Origin: Hyphomicrobiales bacterium
GTDB taxonomy: Bacteria; Pseudomonadota; Alphaproteobacteria; Rhizobiales; RI-29
Assembly: GCA_016125495.1 (NCBI GenBank)
Contig: WGLQ01000002.1
Location: 90,969 to 154,968 of the forward strand
Reading direction: 5' to 3'
DNA length: 64,000 bases
The notes under the pieces are model-generated. The model worked only from the letters and a program-made list of their open reading frames with translations. It ran no database searches and was not told the origin of the DNA. A program made the position numbers and the translations under genes. Position 1 is the first letter of the stretch, and each line of letters opens with the position of its first letter. Shown one piece after another: positions 44,109-52,492 of the stretch.

Positions 44109-44555
44109 TCAGCCCTCGATCGCCTTGGGCGTGCTCGCCGCGCCGATCGCGATGGTGCGCGGCTTCATGGCCTCCGGAACCTCGCGAACGAGGTCGATGT
44201 GCAGGAGGCCGTCTTCGAGGTCGGCACTGCGCACTTCCACATGGTCGGCGAGCTGGAAGCGACGCTCGAAGGCGCGCTCGGCAATGCCGCGATGCAGATA
44301 CTGCGCGGTCGTAGCTTCCTCCGCCTTGCGGCCGCGTACGGTCAGGCCATTCTCCTTGACCTCGATCGACAGTTCGTCACGCCGAAAGCCGGCGACGGCC
44401 ATCGTAATGCGGTACGCGCTCTCGCCGGTGCGCTCGATGTTGTAAGGCGGGTAGCCGAGGTCGGCCTCGCGGCCGGCAATGCCGTCCATCAGGCTGAAGA
44501 GACGGTCGAAGCCAACGGTCGAGCGATAAAGCGGGCTGAGATCGGTATGTCTCAT
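44109..44555 (-). CDS. Small heat-shock protein, Hsp20 family
   Basis: A 148-residue chaperone that holds unfolding proteins. The alpha-crystallin domain spans about residues 40-130: YNIERTGESAYRITMAVAGF, ELSIEVKENGLTVRGRK and HIDLVREVPEAMKP with the C-terminal tail. The N-terminus MRHTDLSPLYRSTVGFDRLF is typical of rhizobial HspA/IbpA-like proteins. The ATG at 44555 has GGAGGAT upstream, part of a ROSE-like hairpin. A heat-shock sigma-factor-like promoter is further upstream. Confidence 0.94.
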   Translation of the reverse strand: MRHTDLSPLYRSTVGFDRLFSLMDGIAGREADLGYPPYNIERTGESAYRITMAVAGFRRDELSIEVKENGLTVRGRKAEEATTAQYLHRGIAERAFERRFQLADHVEVRSADLEDGLLHIDLVREVPEAMKPRTIAIGAASTPKAIEG

Positions 44556-44640
44556 CACACATCCTCCATTTGAAGCGATATGATGTCGGTCCCCCCGGAG
44601 GGCGGAACCTCGAAGCGTGCAGCCATGATATGGCCTGCAC
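44556..44640 (-). ncRNA. ROSE-type RNA thermometer in the hsp20 leader
   Basis: On the minus strand the leader folds into successive hairpins. The first is GCAGGCCAT/ATGGCTGC (44619-44638), and the second GGTTCC...GGGACC (44588-44609). The last, ATCGCTTCAAATGGAGGAT (44561-44579), traps the ribosome binding site GGAGG. In it ATC pairs with GAT and CTTC with GGAG, leaving one G bulged; the UCGCU box and the bulged G are the conserved features of ROSE elements. Heating would open it and allow translation of the small heat-shock protein. Confidence 0.8.
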
Positions 44641-44648
44641 AGCAACGG

Positions 44649-44676
44649 ATTTGGGATATCGGGACAGAGTTTCAAG
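44649..44676 (-). promoter_or_regulatory. Heat-shock (RpoH) promoter for hsp20
   Basis: On the minus strand CTTGAAA (-35, CTTG core at 44673-44676) is followed after 17 bases by CCCAAAT (44649-44655), close to the alphaproteobacterial RpoH pattern CTTG-N17-CYTATNT. It lies just upstream of the thermometer. Confidence 0.6.
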
Positions 44677-44742
44677 ACCTCTTGCCCGGGCGAGCGAAGC
44701 GGTCCACTCGGAGCGTCGGCAACAGCGTGGGAGGACGTGGGG

Positions 44743-45705
44743 ATGGAGCTGGTCGCGCTGGCGAAGAACCCGGTGCCGAGCGGCGCCCATGTGGCGATGC
44801 TGACGGCGGACGACGGCGTGCAGCTGCGCACGGCGCGCTGGGAGGCGAGCAGGGGCCCGAGGCGTGGCACGGTCTGTCTGTTCGGCGGCCGAACGGAATA
44901 CATCGAGAAGTATTTCGAGGTGGTCGCGGACCTCAGGCGCCGGGGCTTTGCCGTCGCGACCATGGATTGGCGCGGGCAGGGCGGCTCCGACCGTCTGCTG
45001 CCCAACCGCCACAAGGGACACGTGCGCGACTTCAAGGAGTACGACCGCGATGTCGTGCGGTTCATGCGCGACGTCGTGCTGCCGGATTGCCCGCCTCCCT
45101 ACATCGCACTCGCGCATTCCATGGGTGGCAATGTCCTCCTCAGGGCGGCACGCACGCCCGGCACCTGGTTCGAGCGCATGGTCCTCTGTGCGCCGATGGT
45201 GCGGCTCGCGCGCGAGGGGCTGGGGCTGCCGTCGGCCGTCGCGCGCACCGCTGCCGAGAGCACCGCGACGGCGGGCCTCGGCTGGCTCTACGTGCCGGGC
45301 GGAACCGATGCGGGCTGGGAGAGCCAGCCGTTCGAGGGCAACGTGCTGACCTCGAGCCGCGATCGCTACGAGCGCAATCAGGCGATCGTCAAGGCCGAAC
45401 CGCGCCTGTCGCTCGGGGCGCCGACGTTCGGATGGATGCGTGCGGCCCTGCGTTCGATGGCGCTGGTTTCGTCGGCACGGTTCGCGAGTGAAGTGTATGT
45501 GCCGATCCTGTTCGTTGCCGCAGGTGACGACGCCGTGGTCGATTCACGGGCGATCGAGCAGATCGCGGTCCGGATCAAGATGGCGACCTACGTGCTCATC
45601 CCCGGTGCTCGCCACGAGGTCCTGCAGGAGGCCGAAGACATCCGGCGCCAGTTCTGGGCGGCGTTCGATGCCTACGTCGGGATCATCGACGAGGGCGGGG
45701 CCTAG
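44743..45705 (+). CDS. Alpha/beta hydrolase, lysophospholipase / monoglyceride-lipase type
   Basis: A 320-residue hydrolase starting at ATG 44743 behind GGAGG. The nucleophile motif is LAHSMGGNVLLRAA (Ser near residue 134). DWRGQGGSDR and GRTEYIEKYFEVV fit the PldB/monoacylglycerol lipase group, and the late ILFVAAGDDAVVD and PGARHEVLQE supply the Asp and His. It probably splits fatty-acid esters such as lysophospholipids in the cytoplasm. It diverges from the hsp20 leader and converges on the ATP synthase operon. Substrate inferred by family only. Confidence 0.86.
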   Translation: MELVALAKNPVPSGAHVAMLTADDGVQLRTARWEASRGPRRGTVCLFGGRTEYIEKYFEVVADLRRRGFAVATMDWRGQGGSDRLLPNRHKGHVRDFKEYDRDVVRFMRDVVLPDCPPPYIALAHSMGGNVLLRAARTPGTWFERMVLCAPMVRLAREGLGLPSAVARTAAESTATAGLGWLYVPGGTDAGWESQPFEGNVLTSSRDRYERNQAIVKAEPRLSLGAPTFGWMRAALRSMALVSSARFASEVYVPILFVAAGDDAVVDSRAIEQIAVRIKMATYVLIPGARHEVLQEAEDIRRQFWAAFDAYVGIIDEGGA

Positions 45706-45799: not shown

Positions 45800-46282
45800 T
45801 CAGTTCAGTTTGCCCTTCAGTTCGGCGATGCCGCGGGCAATCAGCTCGGAGCCGCCGGCGCCCGTGCCGACGCGACTGGCGATCAGCTCGCGTGCCGTCG
45901 CGATGGCGACCTCGGCGGCAGCGCTGCGAACCTCGTTCGTCGCCTGCTCCTCGGCGCGGGCGATCTTGTCCTCGGCCATGCGGGTGCGGCGCTCGAGCTG
46001 TTCGGCGAGATTGCGGCGCGTCTCCTCGGCGTAGAGTTCGGCCTCCTGGCGGGCCTGGGCGATGATGGCCTCGGCCTCGCGGGTTGCCTCCTCGCGCTTG
46101 TGCTGGAATTCCGTCAACGCGCTCTGCGCTTCCTCCTTCAGCCGGCGGGCGGCCTCGAGCTCATCGCGGATGCGATCCGCCCGGTCGTCCAGCGCCTTGG
46201 TCACCATCGCTGGAACCTTGAGGTAGACCAGCAGCAGGATGAACAGGCCGAATGATACGGCCACCCATTCGTCCGCACCCAT
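45800..46282 (-). CDS. atpF: ATP synthase F0 subunit b
   Basis: A 160-residue peripheral-stalk subunit: one N-terminal membrane helix (VAVSFGLFILLLVYLKVPA), then a long charged coiled coil rich in Glu, Arg and Ala. The ATG at 46282 follows GCGGAGAGTAAA; an open frame to 46378 overlaps the b' gene and is rejected. With b' it forms the heterodimeric stator linking F0 to F1 in alphaproteobacteria. It is the last gene of the atpIBEGF operon. Confidence 0.94.
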   Translation of the reverse strand: MGADEWVAVSFGLFILLLVYLKVPAMVTKALDDRADRIRDELEAARRLKEEAQSALTEFQHKREEATREAEAIIAQARQEAELYAEETRRNLAEQLERRTRMAEDKIARAEEQATNEVRSAAAEVAIATARELIASRVGTGAGGSELIARGIAELKGKLN

Positions 46283-46340
46283 TTTACTCTCCGCGTTCCG
46301 TTGTGGGCCGCCGCGCCGCGCACGGGGCCGGATAGGGTTG

Positions 46341-46829
46341 TCAGCGGCGCGGTGTGTTGCGCGCCGCGGCGGTGGCAAGCTCGCTGTCGCTCGGGCTCGC
46401 GCCGATCAGCCGCTCGACGATGGCGCCGGCCGTTTCCGAGCCGATACGCGTCACTTCGCTGAGGGCGGCCGCCTTGGTGGCCTGGATGCGCGCCTCGGCG
46501 GCCGTGAGCCGTTCGTCGAGCTGGCGCTCGGTCTCCTGGCGTTCGCGCTCGACATCTGCGGTCAGCCGCTCGCGGTTGTCCTGGGCGATGACGTGGGCCT
46601 TGCCACGTGCCTCGGCGAGCGCTTGCTCGTAGGCGGTGATGGCCTGCTCGGTCTCGCCCTTGAGGCGCTCGGCCTCGTCGAGATCGCGCTGAATGCGGTC
46701 TCGGCGCTGCTCCAGCACATCCGCGATGCGCGGCAGGGCGAGGCGCGCCATGACGAGATAGAAGGTGATGAAGACGATCGCGAGCCAGATGACCTGGGGA
46801 GCGTAATCGGGGATGTTGAACTGTGGCAT
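46341..46829 (-). CDS. atpG: ATP synthase F0 subunit b'
   Basis: A 162-residue second b-type subunit. MPQFNIPDYAPQVIWLAIVF is the typical b' start, with the membrane helix at about 12-32, followed by a coiled coil (RRDRIQRDLDEAERLKGETE). It lies 58 bases before atpF and 289 bases after atpE. A separate b' alongside b is normal in photosynthetic bacteria and alphaproteobacteria. The ribosome binding site before 46829 is weak (AGGCC). Confidence 0.93.
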   Translation of the reverse strand: MPQFNIPDYAPQVIWLAIVFITFYLVMARLALPRIADVLEQRRDRIQRDLDEAERLKGETEQAITAYEQALAEARGKAHVIAQDNRERLTADVERERQETERQLDERLTAAEARIQATKAAALSEVTRIGSETAGAIVERLIGASPSDSELATAAARNTPRR

Positions 46830-47118
46830 CGTGCTTGGCCTGCGCTCTCGAGTTCGTGCCTCATGCGTCGCGAACGCGCTGCGGCGTCCGGCTGATTCGC
46901 GGGAGCATTGGTGCCGCGGCAACCGTCGGAGCGGTGGCCCCGAGGTCTCGAACGGCGCCCCTGCGCAATCGGCACACTGGGACGACGCCCGACCGGACCG
47001 TTACCGGCCCGGACTTTCGGATGCGGTGGGCGCGTCACCGTGAACCGACCGGCAATGCAGTGGTGGAGGGGCGCTGCGGGAAGGTGACCGCGTCCGCCCC
47101 GTCCGGTCTGGCACTCGA

Positions 47119-47346
47119 TCAGAACGCAAAGAGGATGATGAACGCGATCACGAGACCGAAGAGGCCCGTCGCCTCGGCGAGGGCGAAGCCGAGGAGCAGG
47201 TTCGGGAACTGGCCCGGCGCGGCCGACGGGTTGCGCAGGGCGCCCGACAGGTAGCTGCCGAAAATGTTGCCGATGCCGAGACCGGCGCCGACCAGGGCGA
47301 TGGAGGCGAGGCCCGCACCGATCATCTTTGCTGCTTCGACGTCCAT
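47119..47346 (-). CDS. atpE: ATP synthase F0 subunit c
   Basis: A 75-residue two-helix proteolipid that forms the rotor ring. Helix one carries GAGLGIGNIFGSYLSGALRN with the polar loop RNP, and helix two carries the proton-binding glutamate E58 in FALAEATGLFGLVIAF. Glutamate rather than aspartate is normal for this group. The ATG at 47346 follows GAAGGAGAACACA, a strong site that fits the need for many copies. It is preceded in the transcript by two strong hairpins. Confidence 0.97.
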   Translation of the reverse strand: MDVEAAKMIGAGLASIALVGAGLGIGNIFGSYLSGALRNPSAAPGQFPNLLLGFALAEATGLFGLVIAFIILFAF

Positions 47347-47408
47347 TGTGTTCTCCTTCGTTCACTATCCAGGGGCCCGATCGCGTCGGGCGTTCTGCGG
47401 TTCGGCCG

Positions 47409-47470
47409 CCGGGCGCGTGCCCGGAGACCGGGTGGCGAGGCTCGGTGCGTGGCGCAACGCGCCACGCACC
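47409..47470. promoter_or_regulatory. Two hairpins in the atpB-atpE intergenic gap
   Basis: GGTGCGTGGCGC (47444-47455) and GCGCCACGCACC (47459-47470) form a perfect 12-base stem around AAC. CCGGGC/GCCCGG (47409-47424) forms a second 6-base stem with loop GCGT. Both lie in the transcript between the a- and c-subunit genes, where they could protect or separately process the atpE message. Confidence 0.6.
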
Positions 47471-47474
47471 GGGG

Positions 47475-48233
47475 TCAGTGATGCATGTGAAGTGCGTCGT
47501 TGAGGTAGATGCACGTCAGGATGGCAAAGACATAGGCCTGCAAGAACGCCACCAGGAATTCGAGACCGGTGAACGCAACCATGAAGGCCAACGGGGCCCA
47601 ACCGCCAAGGAAGCCGAGGCCGACGACGAAAGCGCCGAACACCTTGAGCATGGTGTGGCCGGCCAGCATGTTGGCGAAGAGGCGGACCGAAAGGCTCACC
47701 GGACGGGTCAGATAGGAAATGACCTCGATCACGATCAGAAGCGGGATCAGCACGACGGGCGCGCCCGACGGCACGAAGAACTTCAGGAAGCCGACGCCGT
47801 GTTTGACGAAGCCGACGATGGTCACCCCGATGAAAACGACCGCGGCAAGGGCGAACGTGACAATGATGTGGCTCGTCACCGTGAAAGAGTAGGGGATCAT
47901 GCCGAGCAGGTTGCAGGCCAGCACGAACATGAACAGTGAAAAGACGAAGGGGAAAAACTTCATCCCTTCGGTTCCCACGTTCTCCCGGATCATGTTGGCG
48001 ACGAACTCGTAGGAGAGTTCGGCGACGGACTGGAGACGTGTCGGCACGAGCGCGCGCCCCTGCATGGACAGCGTGAGCAGAGCCGTCGTCACTACCGCGG
48101 CAATTACCATCCAGAGCGCGGAGTTCGTGAACGAGGCATCGAGCCCGAACAGCTCGAATTCGAACAGGCGCTTGATCTCGAACTGGTGCATCGGGTCGAT
48201 GCCCGTGCCGCTCCCATGCTCCTGGCTCGCCAC
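47475..48233 (-). CDS. atpB: ATP synthase F0 subunit a
   Basis: A 252-residue membrane subunit that forms the proton half-channels. The essential arginine is R184 in SLSVRLFANMLAGH, and the last helix AFLQAYVFAILTCIYLNDAL is typical. Multiple hydrophobic helices span the rest. It is followed by the hairpin gap and atpE, and preceded by atpI with 13 bases between. Length and motifs are normal. Confidence 0.97.
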   Translation of the reverse strand: MASQEHGSGTGIDPMHQFEIKRLFEFELFGLDASFTNSALWMVIAAVVTTALLTLSMQGRALVPTRLQSVAELSYEFVANMIRENVGTEGMKFFPFVFSLFMFVLACNLLGMIPYSFTVTSHIIVTFALAAVVFIGVTIVGFVKHGVGFLKFFVPSGAPVVLIPLLIVIEVISYLTRPVSLSVRLFANMLAGHTMLKVFGAFVVGLGFLGGWAPLAFMVAFTGLEFLVAFLQAYVFAILTCIYLNDALHMHH

Positions 48234-48246
48234 GCCTCAGCTCCCC

Positions 48247-48645
48247 TCAATCGCCCTCGTCGGCCCGTGCGGTTCGCCCCGAACCCGGAGGTGTGCCCGC
48301 TGCCGTCGCTTCCGCCACCATCAGGCGGTAGGTCCGCATCACGTTCCGCGCGCCAGCGGCCAAGCCGAGCGCGCCGAACAACAACAAAAATGCGGGTCTG
48401 GTGCCCGCCCAGTCGTCGATGAACCAGCCGATTGCGCCGCCGACGACCACGGCCGCAATGAAGTCGATCGCCAAGCGGAGGGCGTACCCGATGGACCTGC
48501 CACGTGTCGGATCGACGCGTGGATTGTGATGCGCACGCGCGTCACCGATCCGCTCGCCCAGATCCTCGAGATCGCGCTTCAGGCGGTCCCGATCCTCAGG
48601 GCTGACTTGTCCGGCGCGTCGCTGCTCGTCGTTCCGACCGGTCAT
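48247..48645 (-). CDS. atpI: AtpI-type assembly protein of ATP synthase
   Basis: A 132-residue protein with a charged N-terminal part (RLKRDLEDLGERIGDARAHH) and two membrane helices (LAIDFIAAVVVGGAIGWFID and PAFLLLFGALGLAAGA). AtpI helps assemble the c-ring and is the usual first gene of alphaproteobacterial F0 operons. The start at 48645 is chosen because an upstream ATG at 48714 falls inside the promoter. Confidence 0.88.
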   Translation of the reverse strand: MTGRNDEQRRAGQVSPEDRDRLKRDLEDLGERIGDARAHHNPRVDPTRGRSIGYALRLAIDFIAAVVVGGAIGWFIDDWAGTRPAFLLLFGALGLAAGARNVMRTYRLMVAEATAAGTPPGSGRTARADEGD

Positions 48646-48695
48646 GGAAACGCCCACTGCATGCGGCCGTTCCCCGCCCCCTCCTGCTCGCGCGC

Positions 48696-48724
48696 AATCT
48701 AGATTTGCGGCCATACCGTGTCAA
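48696..48724 (-). promoter_or_regulatory. Sigma-70-type promoter of the atpIBEGF operon
   Basis: On the minus strand a perfect TTGACA (48719-48724) is followed after exactly 17 bases by TAGATT (48696-48701). Transcription would begin about 45 bases before the atpI start. It is the best promoter match seen in the window. Confidence 0.75.
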
Positions 48725-48836: not shown

Positions 48837-51800
48837 TCAGCTCGCCTGGCGCAGCGCCGCGGCACGTGAGAAATCGACGGAAACCAATTGACTGACCCCC
48901 TTCTCGAGCATCGTCACACCGTAGAGGCGATCCATCCGCGACATCGTCATCGGATGGTGTGTGATGACGAGAAATCGCGTGTCGGTGCGCTTGGCCATGT
49001 CCTCGAGGAGCCGGCAGAAGCGCCCGACATTGGCGTCGTCGAGTGGCGCATCGACCTCGTCCAGCACGCAGATCGGTGAAGGGTTGGTCAGGAACACCGC
49101 GAAGATCAGTGCCATGGCCGTCAAGGCCTGCTCGCCGCCCGACAGCAGCGAGAGTGTCGCTGGCTTCTTGCCCGGGGGACGGGCGATGAGTTCGAGACCG
49201 CCTTCGAGCGGGTCATCGCCTTCGATGAGCTGCAGGTCGGCGGTGCCGCCGTCGAAAAGGGTCGTGAAGAGCTGCCTGAACGAGGCGTTGACGGCCTCGA
49301 ACGCCTCCAGCAGGCGGCGGCGGCCCTCGCGATTGAGCTTTTGGATCGCCTGGCGCAATTTCGCGATCGCCTCGACGAGGTCGGCGCGCTCGCCCTCGAG
49401 ACGGTCGTGCTCGACGCTAAGCTCGTCGAGTTCCGTCTCGGCGCGCAAGTTGACGCCCCCGAGCCTTTCACGATCGCCGCGCAGGCGCTCCAATTGGTGG
49501 GCGGTCTCCTCGGGAGTGGGAACGGACCGGTTCGCCTCGCCATCGGCAGGGTCACCGTAGCCGGCGAGCGCGAGACACGCTTCAGGGGTTACGTCGAGGG
49601 CGTTGCGGATGGCGAGCGAATGCTCGGCGCGGCGGTTGCGGGCTGCCTCGAGGCGCGCCTCGGCGCGGCCGCGCTCCTCGAGGGCGGCGTTCATGGCCTG
49701 CTGCAGTGCCTTGAGTGCCTCCGCGCACGATCGGCAGGTGCCTTCTGCACGGGCGAGGGCATCGGCGGCGGCGGCGCGCTCGTTCTCGGCGCCGGCGCGC
49801 GACGCCAGAAGGCGGATACGGCGCTCTTCGATCTCGCCCGGCATGCCTGCGAGGCGGCCTTCCTCCTCGCCGAGATTCGCGAGGCGACGGGCGAGTTCTT
49901 CGATTTGGACGACCGCGCGTTCGGCGCGGTTCGCGGTTTGGGTGACCTCGCGATCGACGGCGGCGTTGCGCTCGGTGACGAGGGCGAGTTCGCGCTCGAG
50001 GCTGCGGACCAGGGCCTCGGCTTCGGTCCACTGCCGGCGCCGCTCCTGGGCGTCGAGCATGGCGGCGGCGCGTTGGTCGCGAACGGCCGAAAGGCCACCT
50101 TCGTCGGCGACGAGGGCGCGCTCACTGGCAAGGTGACGCTCGAGTTCGTCGATGCGTTCGCCGAGCGGGGCGATGGCGGTCGCCGCGGCGGCGAGGCGGT
50201 CGTCGAGCCGCGCGATGGCGGTCTCGAGCGCGCGGGCGCGCTCCTCGGCCGCGCGCAGTGTCGTTTCGCCGCCGCGGCGCTCTACGTCGCGGGTCGCGGA
50301 TTCGGCCCGGGCCGCGTCGGCCTCTCGAATGGCATCCGCGAGGGCGGCGGACAAGCGTGCGGCGGTCGCCTCACGCTCGGCGAGTTCCGACTCGAGACTG
50401 GCCAGGCGATTGCGCTCGATGAGGCGGACGGTCGCCGCGCTCGGTGCCTCGGAACGGGCACGCAGTCCGTCCCAACGCCATAGAGCGCCGGCGGGAGAGA
50501 CGAGCCGTTGCCCCGCACGAAGGGCCGGCGCGAGCCGGTCACCGGTCGCTTCGTCCGCGACGATGCCGATCTGAGCCAGCCGACGGTGCAGTTCGCGCGG
50601 CGCCTCGACGTAACCGCGGAGCGGCTCGGCTCCCTCCGGGAGGGGTGGATCGGAGCGGCTCGCGGTCTCGCTCGCGGGATCGTCGGTCCATTGGACCGGA
50701 GCACCGGCCTCGAGACTCGCGACGAGATCGTCGCCAAGTGCAGAGCCGAGTGCTTTCTCGTAACCGGGCGCCACCGTCACGAGATCGAGAACTGGCCTGG
50801 GGCTGGCCGTGTCGTCGAGCGCCGATGCGGCGACGAATTGGCGCAGGGCCTTGACCTCCGAGGCGAGCGTGGCGGCAGCCAATCTGGCTTCGGCATCGCG
50901 TTCGCGGGCGGCGTCGCGCCGGTCGGACGTCGCGGCGGCCACTCGGTGGGCGACCTCGGCAGCCTCGATCGCGGCGACGAGGGCCTTGCGCGCCGCCTCG
51001 GTGGCGGCCGCGGCGGCATGGGGATCGCCGAGCGCCGCGCGCTCGCTTGTCAGCCCATCGCGGTCGCGCGTCAGGCCCGCCTGCTGGCGGCGCGCCTGTT
51101 CGAGTGCCGATTCGGCCGAGCTGATGGAACTCTCGATGCGGCGGCGCTCGGCGGTCGCCTCGGCGAGGCGGGCATTCAGCGTCTCGAGTGCAGCATCGGC
51201 CGAAAGGCTCGCCTCGCGGGCCGAAGCCGACGCGGTGCGGGCTGGGCCGACACCTTCTCCGAGGCGGGCCAGTGCGCCATTCAGACGCTCCTTCTCCTCG
51301 GCCAGCCGTTCGGCGTGGTGATGGGCCTCGATGCGAGCCTCCTCGGCACGCTGACGGTCGGCATGGCATTGCGCGATCCGGCCTTGAACCTCGTCGAGCC
51401 GGGCGCGGGCGTCCGCCTCCTCGCGGGCGATCCCCTCGACCTCGATCTGAAGGCGTTGGAGGACCGCGGCGCGCACCATTTCCTGCTGGCGAAGCGGGCC
51501 GAGCGCTTCGTTGAGGCGCTCGAGCTCGGTCCGTCCAGCCGTTTCGGCGGCGCTGGCGCGTCCGACCTCGGCGAGAACCGCGCGCAGGCCGGTCTCGGCA
51601 TCCTCGACGGCCCGCTCGGCGGCGAGCCAAGAATAGTGGAACTGCAGGGCCTCGAGGCGCTTGATCTCCTCGCTCAGCTCGCGATAGCGGCGTGCCTGTC
51701 GCGCCTGGCGCTTCAGTCCGTTCATTTGTGTCGTGAACTGGCCGAGAATGTCGTCCACACGCGCGAGGTTGGCCTCGGTCGCCTCGAGGCGCAACTCGGC

Positions 51801-52337
51801 TTCGCGCCGGCGGCTGTGTAGTCCGGCAATGCCGGCAGCGTCCTCGAGGATGCGCCGACGCTGCTCCGGCTTGGCGTTGACGATCTCGCCGATCTGACCC
51901 TGGCGGACGAGTGCGTTGGACCGCGCGCCGGTTGCAGCGTCCTCGAACAGCAGGCGGACATCGCGCGCCCGCGTGTCGCGGCCGTTTATGCGGTAGGCCG
52001 AGCCGGCGCTGCGCTCAATGCGCCGCGAAATCTCGATGAGGTCGCTGTCGTTGAAGGCGGCAGGGGCGGTGCGCCCGGCATTGTCGATGGTGACGACGAC
52101 CTCGGCCATGTTGCGGGCCGGCCGGCGATCGGTGCCGGAAAAGATCACGTCGTCCATGAGGGCGGCGCGCATGCTCTTGTGGGAGGTCTCGCCCATGACC
52201 CACCGCAGCGCCTCGAGGAGGTTCGATTTGCCGCAGCCGTTCGGGCCGACGACACCCGTGAGGCCAGGCGCGATCACCAGCTCCGCGGGGTCGACGAACG
52301 ACTTGAAGCCCTGCAACCTCAGTCGCGTGATCTGCAA
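48837..52337 (-). CDS. smc: Chromosome segregation protein SMC
   Basis: A 1166-residue structural-maintenance-of-chromosomes ATPase that compacts and segregates DNA with ScpA/ScpB. A TTG at 52337 behind GGAGGATCGCA gives the canonical N-terminus (M)QITRLRLQGFKSF; the frame remains open upstream. Walker A is GPNGCGKSN (31-39). Long coiled coils flank a hinge near residues 510-640 (GYEKALGSALGDDL). The C-terminal head has LSGGEQALTAMALIFA and Walker B with PICVLDEVDAPLDDAN. The next genes downstream in the same direction belong to atpI; upstream are the DsbA-like genes. Composition shows strong Arg/Glu/Ala coiled-coil bias. Confidence 0.97.
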   Translation of the reverse strand: MQITRLRLQGFKSFVDPAELVIAPGLTGVVGPNGCGKSNLLEALRWVMGETSHKSMRAALMDDVIFSGTDRRPARNMAEVVVTIDNAGRTAPAAFNDSDLIEISRRIERSAGSAYRINGRDTRARDVRLLFEDAATGARSNALVRQGQIGEIVNAKPEQRRRILEDAAGIAGLHSRRREAELRLEATEANLARVDDILGQFTTQMNGLKRQARQARRYRELSEEIKRLEALQFHYSWLAAERAVEDAETGLRAVLAEVGRASAAETAGRTELERLNEALGPLRQQEMVRAAVLQRLQIEVEGIAREEADARARLDEVQGRIAQCHADRQRAEEARIEAHHHAERLAEEKERLNGALARLGEGVGPARTASASAREASLSADAALETLNARLAEATAERRRIESSISSAESALEQARRQQAGLTRDRDGLTSERAALGDPHAAAAATEAARKALVAAIEAAEVAHRVAAATSDRRDAARERDAEARLAAATLASEVKALRQFVAASALDDTASPRPVLDLVTVAPGYEKALGSALGDDLVASLEAGAPVQWTDDPASETASRSDPPLPEGAEPLRGYVEAPRELHRRLAQIGIVADEATGDRLAPALRAGQRLVSPAGALWRWDGLRARSEAPSAATVRLIERNRLASLESELAEREATAARLSAALADAIREADAARAESATRDVERRGGETTLRAAEERARALETAIARLDDRLAAAATAIAPLGERIDELERHLASERALVADEGGLSAVRDQRAAAMLDAQERRRQWTEAEALVRSLERELALVTERNAAVDREVTQTANRAERAVVQIEELARRLANLGEEEGRLAGMPGEIEERRIRLLASRAGAENERAAAADALARAEGTCRSCAEALKALQQAMNAALEERGRAEARLEAARNRRAEHSLAIRNALDVTPEACLALAGYGDPADGEANRSVPTPEETAHQLERLRGDRERLGGVNLRAETELDELSVEHDRLEGERADLVEAIAKLRQAIQKLNREGRRRLLEAFEAVNASFRQLFTTLFDGGTADLQLIEGDDPLEGGLELIARPPGKKPATLSLLSGGEQALTAMALIFAVFLTNPSPICVLDEVDAPLDDANVGRFCRLLEDMAKRTDTRFLVITHHPMTMSRMDRLYGVTMLEKGVSQLVSVDFSRAAALRQAS

Positions 52338-52492
52338 TGCGATCCTCCGGGACGGCCCGTTCACCACGCGGCTGGCGAGCGTTCAAGATCCTATTGCACA
52401 ACAGATTCGGGGGCTACTCAAGGCCGATCGGCACCGCCGCAGCCGCCGGGGACGGGGTGGCGGTGCCCCGGTTCGGCACCCTCCAACGGTCT

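Follow-up and report, generated by a model that had tools for sequence, protein, structure and literature searches.

A probable ROSE-type RNA thermometer behind an RpoH-type promoter at a small heat-shock gene of a Hyphomicrobiales bacterium

Our analysis points to a ROSE-type RNA thermometer in the leader of hsp20, a gene carried on the window, that is, the whole 64,000-nucleotide stretch of a Hyphomicrobiales genome that was analyzed. It is very probable that the leader of this alphaproteobacterial small heat-shock gene is a thermometer of this class, preceded by a promoter of the RpoH (sigma-32) type. The evidence consists of the sequence parts themselves, their conservation and covariation in related leaders, and the presence of rpoH in the genome. 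The assignment to ROSE rests on the gene, the hairpins, and the motif, with a score below the curated Rfam figure, and the heat response is a prediction. At normal temperature, the last hairpin would pair the Shine-Dalgarno (SD) sequence with AUC-G-CUUC and translation would be low. Heat would then open this imperfect helix at the bulged G and let ribosomes bind, while RpoH would increase transcription of hsp20. That this is an ordinary case of a known class is well supported, and double control by ROSE and RpoH has already been published for rhizobia. It adds a well-supported candidate thermometer in a bacterium that shares its order with the genomes compared, and whose family lacks members among the 60 relatives searched.

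The gene immediately 3' of the leader is of the kind expected next to a ROSE-type thermometer. Its product matches PF00011 at 71.9 bits in a Pfam search (cut-off 20.8, E = 5e-20), and its place in its own genome is C2:135080-135523. The same genome has one rpoH gene above the curated cut-off (369 bits versus 323.1), along with a second match below it, at 85.8 bits. A divergent alpha/beta hydrolase gene (44737-45705, forward strand, PF12146) lies on the other side of the intergenic region that holds the hsp20 promoter. Farther along, the list of open reading frames reads as frames resembling ATP synthase membrane subunits (45800-48714, reverse strand) and a long SMC-like frame (48837-52367).

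Table 1. Features of the hsp20 locus, in positions of the window.
Feature	Coordinates	Strand	Basis or detail
-35 element CTTGAA of RpoH-type promoter	44671..44676	-	Pattern search
-10 element CCCAAAT, spacer 15	44649..44655	-	Match to RpoH1 consensus
Hairpin I, GUGCAG-G-CC-loop-GG-CUGCAC, bulged G 44634	44617..44640	-	Folding; stem search in relatives
Hairpin II, GGUUCC...GGGACC	44588..44609	-	Folding; helix covaries in 30 relatives
Hairpin III, proposed thermosensing hairpin	44553..44585	-	44585-44556 in ROSE register; to 44553, including start codon, in shifted register
UCGCU anti-Shine-Dalgarno motif, bulged G 44576	44574..44578	-	Motif U(U/C)GCU of PMC3669281
Shine-Dalgarno GGAGGA	44562..44567	-	Reading and folding
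hsp20, small heat-shock protein CDS	44112..44555	-	Pfam PF00011; ATG 44555-44553; stop codon 44109-44111

For comparison, we assembled 110 leaders, comprising the window's own (L004), 29 from genomes of its order, and 80 that were the best of 588 relatives; the 29 came from the best 30 places of a search, the window's being among those 30. An RpoH-like promoter had been proposed in a sequence-only reading of this DNA, and CTTGAA-N15-CCCAAAT was indeed found, in a pattern that is kept in the related leaders. Specifically, the strict form CTTGAA-N14-17-CCYANAT is present in 55 of the 110 leaders (0.02 expected), and CTTG-N17/18-CCNANNT in 93, against 0.54 expected from mononucleotide shuffling. 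The sequence of L017 is too short to contain the promoter; of the other 92 pattern-bearing leaders, 80 have A as the last -35 base, 61 have a 16-base spacer, and 31 a 15-base one, the search pattern itself fixing the remaining limits of these tallies. The strict form occurs once in the 64-kb window, where 0.02 occurrences would be expected, and once in the entire genome, at hsp20, a genome-wide count that a mirrored control pattern equals. PMC4843759 quotes the RpoH1 consensus as CTTGAA-N15-16-CCTATAT, with which the pattern of the 110 leaders is consistent. The -10 element of the window agrees with CCTATAT at five of seven positions, as expected for an alphaproteobacterial RpoH promoter. Another candidate -10 element, CCGATAT with a spacer of 8, was dropped in favor of CCCAAAT on the grounds of spacing and conservation. 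Transcription of hsp20 would start at approximately 44643, and we infer that the promoter depends on RpoH.

Between the -10 element and hsp20 lies a leader of approximately 90 bases carrying hairpins I, II, and III (Table 1). The sequence-only reading had counted three leader hairpins plus a last one; the last hairpin, with its bulged G opposite the ribosome binding site, holds up, but the main hairpins number three in total. This falls within the two to four hairpins of ROSE elements, with the SD in the 3'-most, given in PMC3669281 and PMC4166951. In hairpin III, AUC (44579-44577) can pair with GAU (44563-44561) and CUUC (44575-44572) with GGAG (44567-44564), leaving G44576 bulged. The pairing can form exactly as had been claimed, and cmscan against the Rfam ROSE model gives a matching register. 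UCGCU opposite GGAGGA is an instance of the imperfect pairing between U(U/C)GCU and the SD that is expected of ROSE, with a shifted register competing in short segments. As for hairpin I, the Rfam ROSE consensus has an unpaired G at the position equivalent to its bulged G. The folding energy of the leader is -44.7 kcal/mol versus a mean of -33.2 kcal/mol for dinucleotide shuffles (z = -3.34), and 1 of 200 shuffles was as good. A fourU thermometer, in which four uridines pair with AGGA, was rejected on inspection because the anti-SD strand is AUCGCUUC.

These parts recur across the related leaders. U(U/C)GCU followed within 1 to 12 bases by GGAG or AGGA is present in 109 of the 110, compared with 0.96 expected in shuffled leaders and 7.8 when the final 17 bases are left unshuffled; the sole exception, L087, has UUGCU but an AAGG site. 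The design of hairpin I (six pairs, a bulged G, and CC-loop-GG) was sought from -150 to -40, taking the best stem of this kind in each leader. It is perfect in 84 of the 110 leaders (0.95 in shuffles, with a maximum of 2 over 20 sets) and, with one mismatch permitted, present in 92 versus 7.0 in shuffles. The perfect cases include 38 distinct left arms; six of these 84 leaders (L017, L035, L039, L091, L103, and L106) have the stem at a position closer to the gene, where it could be hairpin II. As a side observation, two loci titled Oceanospirillales and Parendozoicomonas (L098 and L107), which we take to be Gammaproteobacteria, have an hsp20 near the window's group and a leader with UUGCU, perhaps reflecting a horizontally transferred gene.

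The helices of hairpins II and III covary. In 30 leaders that excluded the window's and were hand-picked from 83 nonredundant ones, with a bias toward those that are window-like, 91.1% of the cells in these two hairpins were paired, and double-sided changes accounted for 27 cells and involved 9 of the 16 pairs. Among 500 shuffled alignments, none was as high on four of five measures, and 3 were on the fifth. Sliding the structure by 1 to 3 columns left 36 to 57% paired, although the tested structure had been written from the consensus of the 30 leaders and was therefore favored over the slid versions. Left unaided, RNAalifold returned 12 pairs in the same leaders, including the helix with the bulged G. 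Taken together, the conservation of both leader and promoter in the 110 leaders and the covariation of the hairpins support the combined reading of a ROSE-type leader with an RpoH-like promoter.

A covariance model built from the same 30 leaders, without the window's, recognized the hsp20 site. The hsp20 site scored 69.3 bits (E = 6.8e-14), with some of those bits added by coding bases, since the model spans to 44547; the runner-up in the window scored 16.5 bits, and the runner-up in the genome scored 19.5 bits among the 150 of 4,804 first-look candidates that were scored. When the model was run on 87 loci, 79 of them orthologs outside the training set, 70 of these 79 matched at E <= 0.01, some being near copies of training leaders. 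The nine misses were L027, L031, L065, L067, L087, L091, L093, L103, and L106. Six of these still match at the correct place, with E-values between 0.025 and 2.9, and the record titles of four name Caulobacter or Phenylobacterium. The other two Hsp20 genes of the genome (L001 and L003) had no match at E <= 10, and on inspection the L003 stretch had no U(U/C)GCU-SD arrangement; the stretch covered at L001 falls within its reading frame.

The curated Rfam model gave a different picture. A covariance search with the ROSE model had been suggested as a check on the sequence-only reading, with a poor score to speak against it, and with RF00435 the score is poor. The model aligns to 44640-44550 on the correct strand and in the correct register, scoring 15.1 bits (gathering 45) with an E-value of 5.7 over 4,227 families; at gathering threshold, the entire window returned tRNA only. 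On the other side, none of 18 orthologous loci reaches any gathering score, and the ortholog model, built without the window, gives 69.3 bits. The gathering score is a curator's figure, not a biological criterion, and no such score was reached by any of 20 loci, namely the 18 orthologs, the window's included, and the two other hsp20 genes. When the threshold was relaxed, ROSE matches appeared in 3 of 15 loci (L006 with 27.5 bits and L010 with 26.2 bits to ROSE, L091 with 24.3 bits to ROSE_3), and the window's locus was absent from the matches listed. Elsewhere in three of four genomes, RF00435 exceeded 45 bits, with 69.1 in a Bradyrhizobium, 60.6 in an Ensifer, and 57.6 in another Bradyrhizobium; the first of these elements, on inspection, precedes an apparent small heat-shock gene. 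Finding elements in three genomes but no orthologous locus at gathering, the Rfam model looks narrow for the hsp20 group. Since 0 of 18 orthologous loci reach a gathering score, a model built from hsp20-group leaders would improve annotation. No RF00435 match at E <= 1 was found in the window's genome or in 14 control genomes. Scoring in the window's genome covered 150 of the 306 first-look candidates, so the absence of the hsp20 site from the matches there means little. Two further matches were regarded as chance, one to ROSE on contig 21 of the same genome (21.2 bits, searched at E <= 10), which on inspection lies among unrelated reading frames, and one to whalefall-1 over part of the leader (11.4 bits, E = 3.2, gathering 37; lax threshold, 44500-44760), which has a better E-value than ROSE.

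Temperature folding of the leader, which had also been suggested as a check, predicted no opening of the SD. For the leader with coding sequence to 44500, ViennaRNA gave an SD whose unpaired fraction went from 5% at 20°C through 13% at 42°C to 21% at 60°C, and a start codon that became slightly less free on heating (23 to 34% unpaired). In that segment, the ROSE register with G44576 bulged was best at 20 to 37°C and a shifted register was best from 42°C, the latter pairing CUUC with GAGG and extending the lower stem to 44553 across the start codon. Which register prevails varies with the segment folded. When the segment stops at a position from 44553 to 44540, the shifted register is favored at 25, 37, and 42°C, and in the isolated hairpin III at 37°C it has -12.1 versus -10.2 kcal/mol for the ROSE register; once the fold takes in coding sequence as far as 44530 or 44520, the ROSE register has the minimum energy at 25 and 37°C. 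In silico deletion of the bulged G made the unshifted register best, at -14.0 kcal/mol (isolated hairpin, 37°C). The SD of the isolated hairpin went from 21% unpaired at 25°C to 16% at 60°C, and the median across the 110 leaders was 26% at 25°C, 32% at 42°C, and 45% at 60°C, with no clear switch. In short segments, the last hairpin of the window is the fifth most stable of the 110 (-12.1, median -7.6) and its start codon the second least accessible (0.04, median 0.49). To our knowledge, standard energy rules do not include the noncanonical pairs reported for ROSE. On account of these rules, we judged the temperature folding, which covered the window's leader and its relatives, to be uninformative as proof of melting; by family resemblance, hairpin III of the window would be expected to melt.

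An argument can be made that heat control is transcriptional only, acting through the RpoH promoter, and that the hairpins serve, for example, mRNA stability, with the last one not melting physiologically. The folding at 20 to 60°C, which predicts no melting, is in line with this, as are the rank of the last hairpin in stability and that of the start codon in inaccessibility. Nevertheless, the energy model gives no clear melting across the 110-leader group either, and 109 of the 110 leaders carry, opposite the SD, the U(U/C)GCU motif that marks the tested thermometers of PMC3669281; we consider a purely transcriptional response improbable. Still less probable is that the conserved dyads are DNA repressor sites, as was originally supposed for ROSE, rather than an RNA device. 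The conserved block does sit between promoter and gene, and inverted repeats could act as operators. Yet in stems of hairpin I type, 38 different left arms each meet a right arm that pairs with them, which indicates that pairing is kept, not sequence; hairpins II and III contain G-U pairs and double changes; and the operator idea was abandoned for Bradyrhizobium japonicum ROSE, according to PMC4166951. We give hardly any credence to a chance resemblance within a GC-rich leader. Such a resemblance would be compatible with an Rfam score under gathering and with the better E-value of another family over the same stretch, but the match to the ortholog model built without the window speaks strongly against it, as does the conservation of motif, promoter, and hairpin I stem across 110 leaders.

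The ROSE-type thermometer behind an RpoH-type promoter thus remains our preferred reading. A bolder extension, tentative and in our view rather doubtful, is that the hsp20-group leaders form a broad alphaproteobacterial ROSE subfamily missed by the current Rfam, with bulged Gs in both hairpins I and III, and that the last hairpin of the window switches between two registers, one locking the start codon and setting a different opening temperature. The two competing registers of hairpin III offer a simple test of stem layout versus opening temperature.

Among known systems, the short ROSE-like thermometers of Pseudomonas ibpA resemble the window in having U(U/C)GCU paired with the SD and in sigma-32 control. 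Going by PMC3669281, they differ in having two hairpins rather than three and a start codon predicted to be unpaired, whereas that of the window is partly paired. More widely, ROSE-like elements with U(U/C)GCU opposite the SD have been predicted more than 40 times in alpha- and gammaproteobacteria (PMC3669281 and PMC4166951). Class A genes of Mesorhizobium loti and Sinorhizobium meliloti have a gene and a leader of the same kind as the window's (PMC3989490 and PMC2873474); the window differs in that none of the relatives searched shares the family of its genome and in that its element is a predicted one. In PMC3989490, all four named class A genes of M. loti have a ROSE element, one of which, hspH, showed no heat increase in the published array; by analogy, this would count against the ROSE reading of the window. 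For S. meliloti, ROSE-bearing genes are reported there to be RpoH-dependent (see also PMC2873474), and an RpoH promoter is reported for Agrobacterium tumefaciens hspL in PMC2885654. With respect to the RF00435 ROSE family itself, the window differs in its score (15.1 bits versus a gathering score of 45), in its shorter hairpin II, and in a last stem that can reach over the start codon. It shares with that family the small heat-shock leader, a hairpin I with an unpaired G, a hairpin II, and a last hairpin in which UYGCU and an unpaired G lie opposite the SD.
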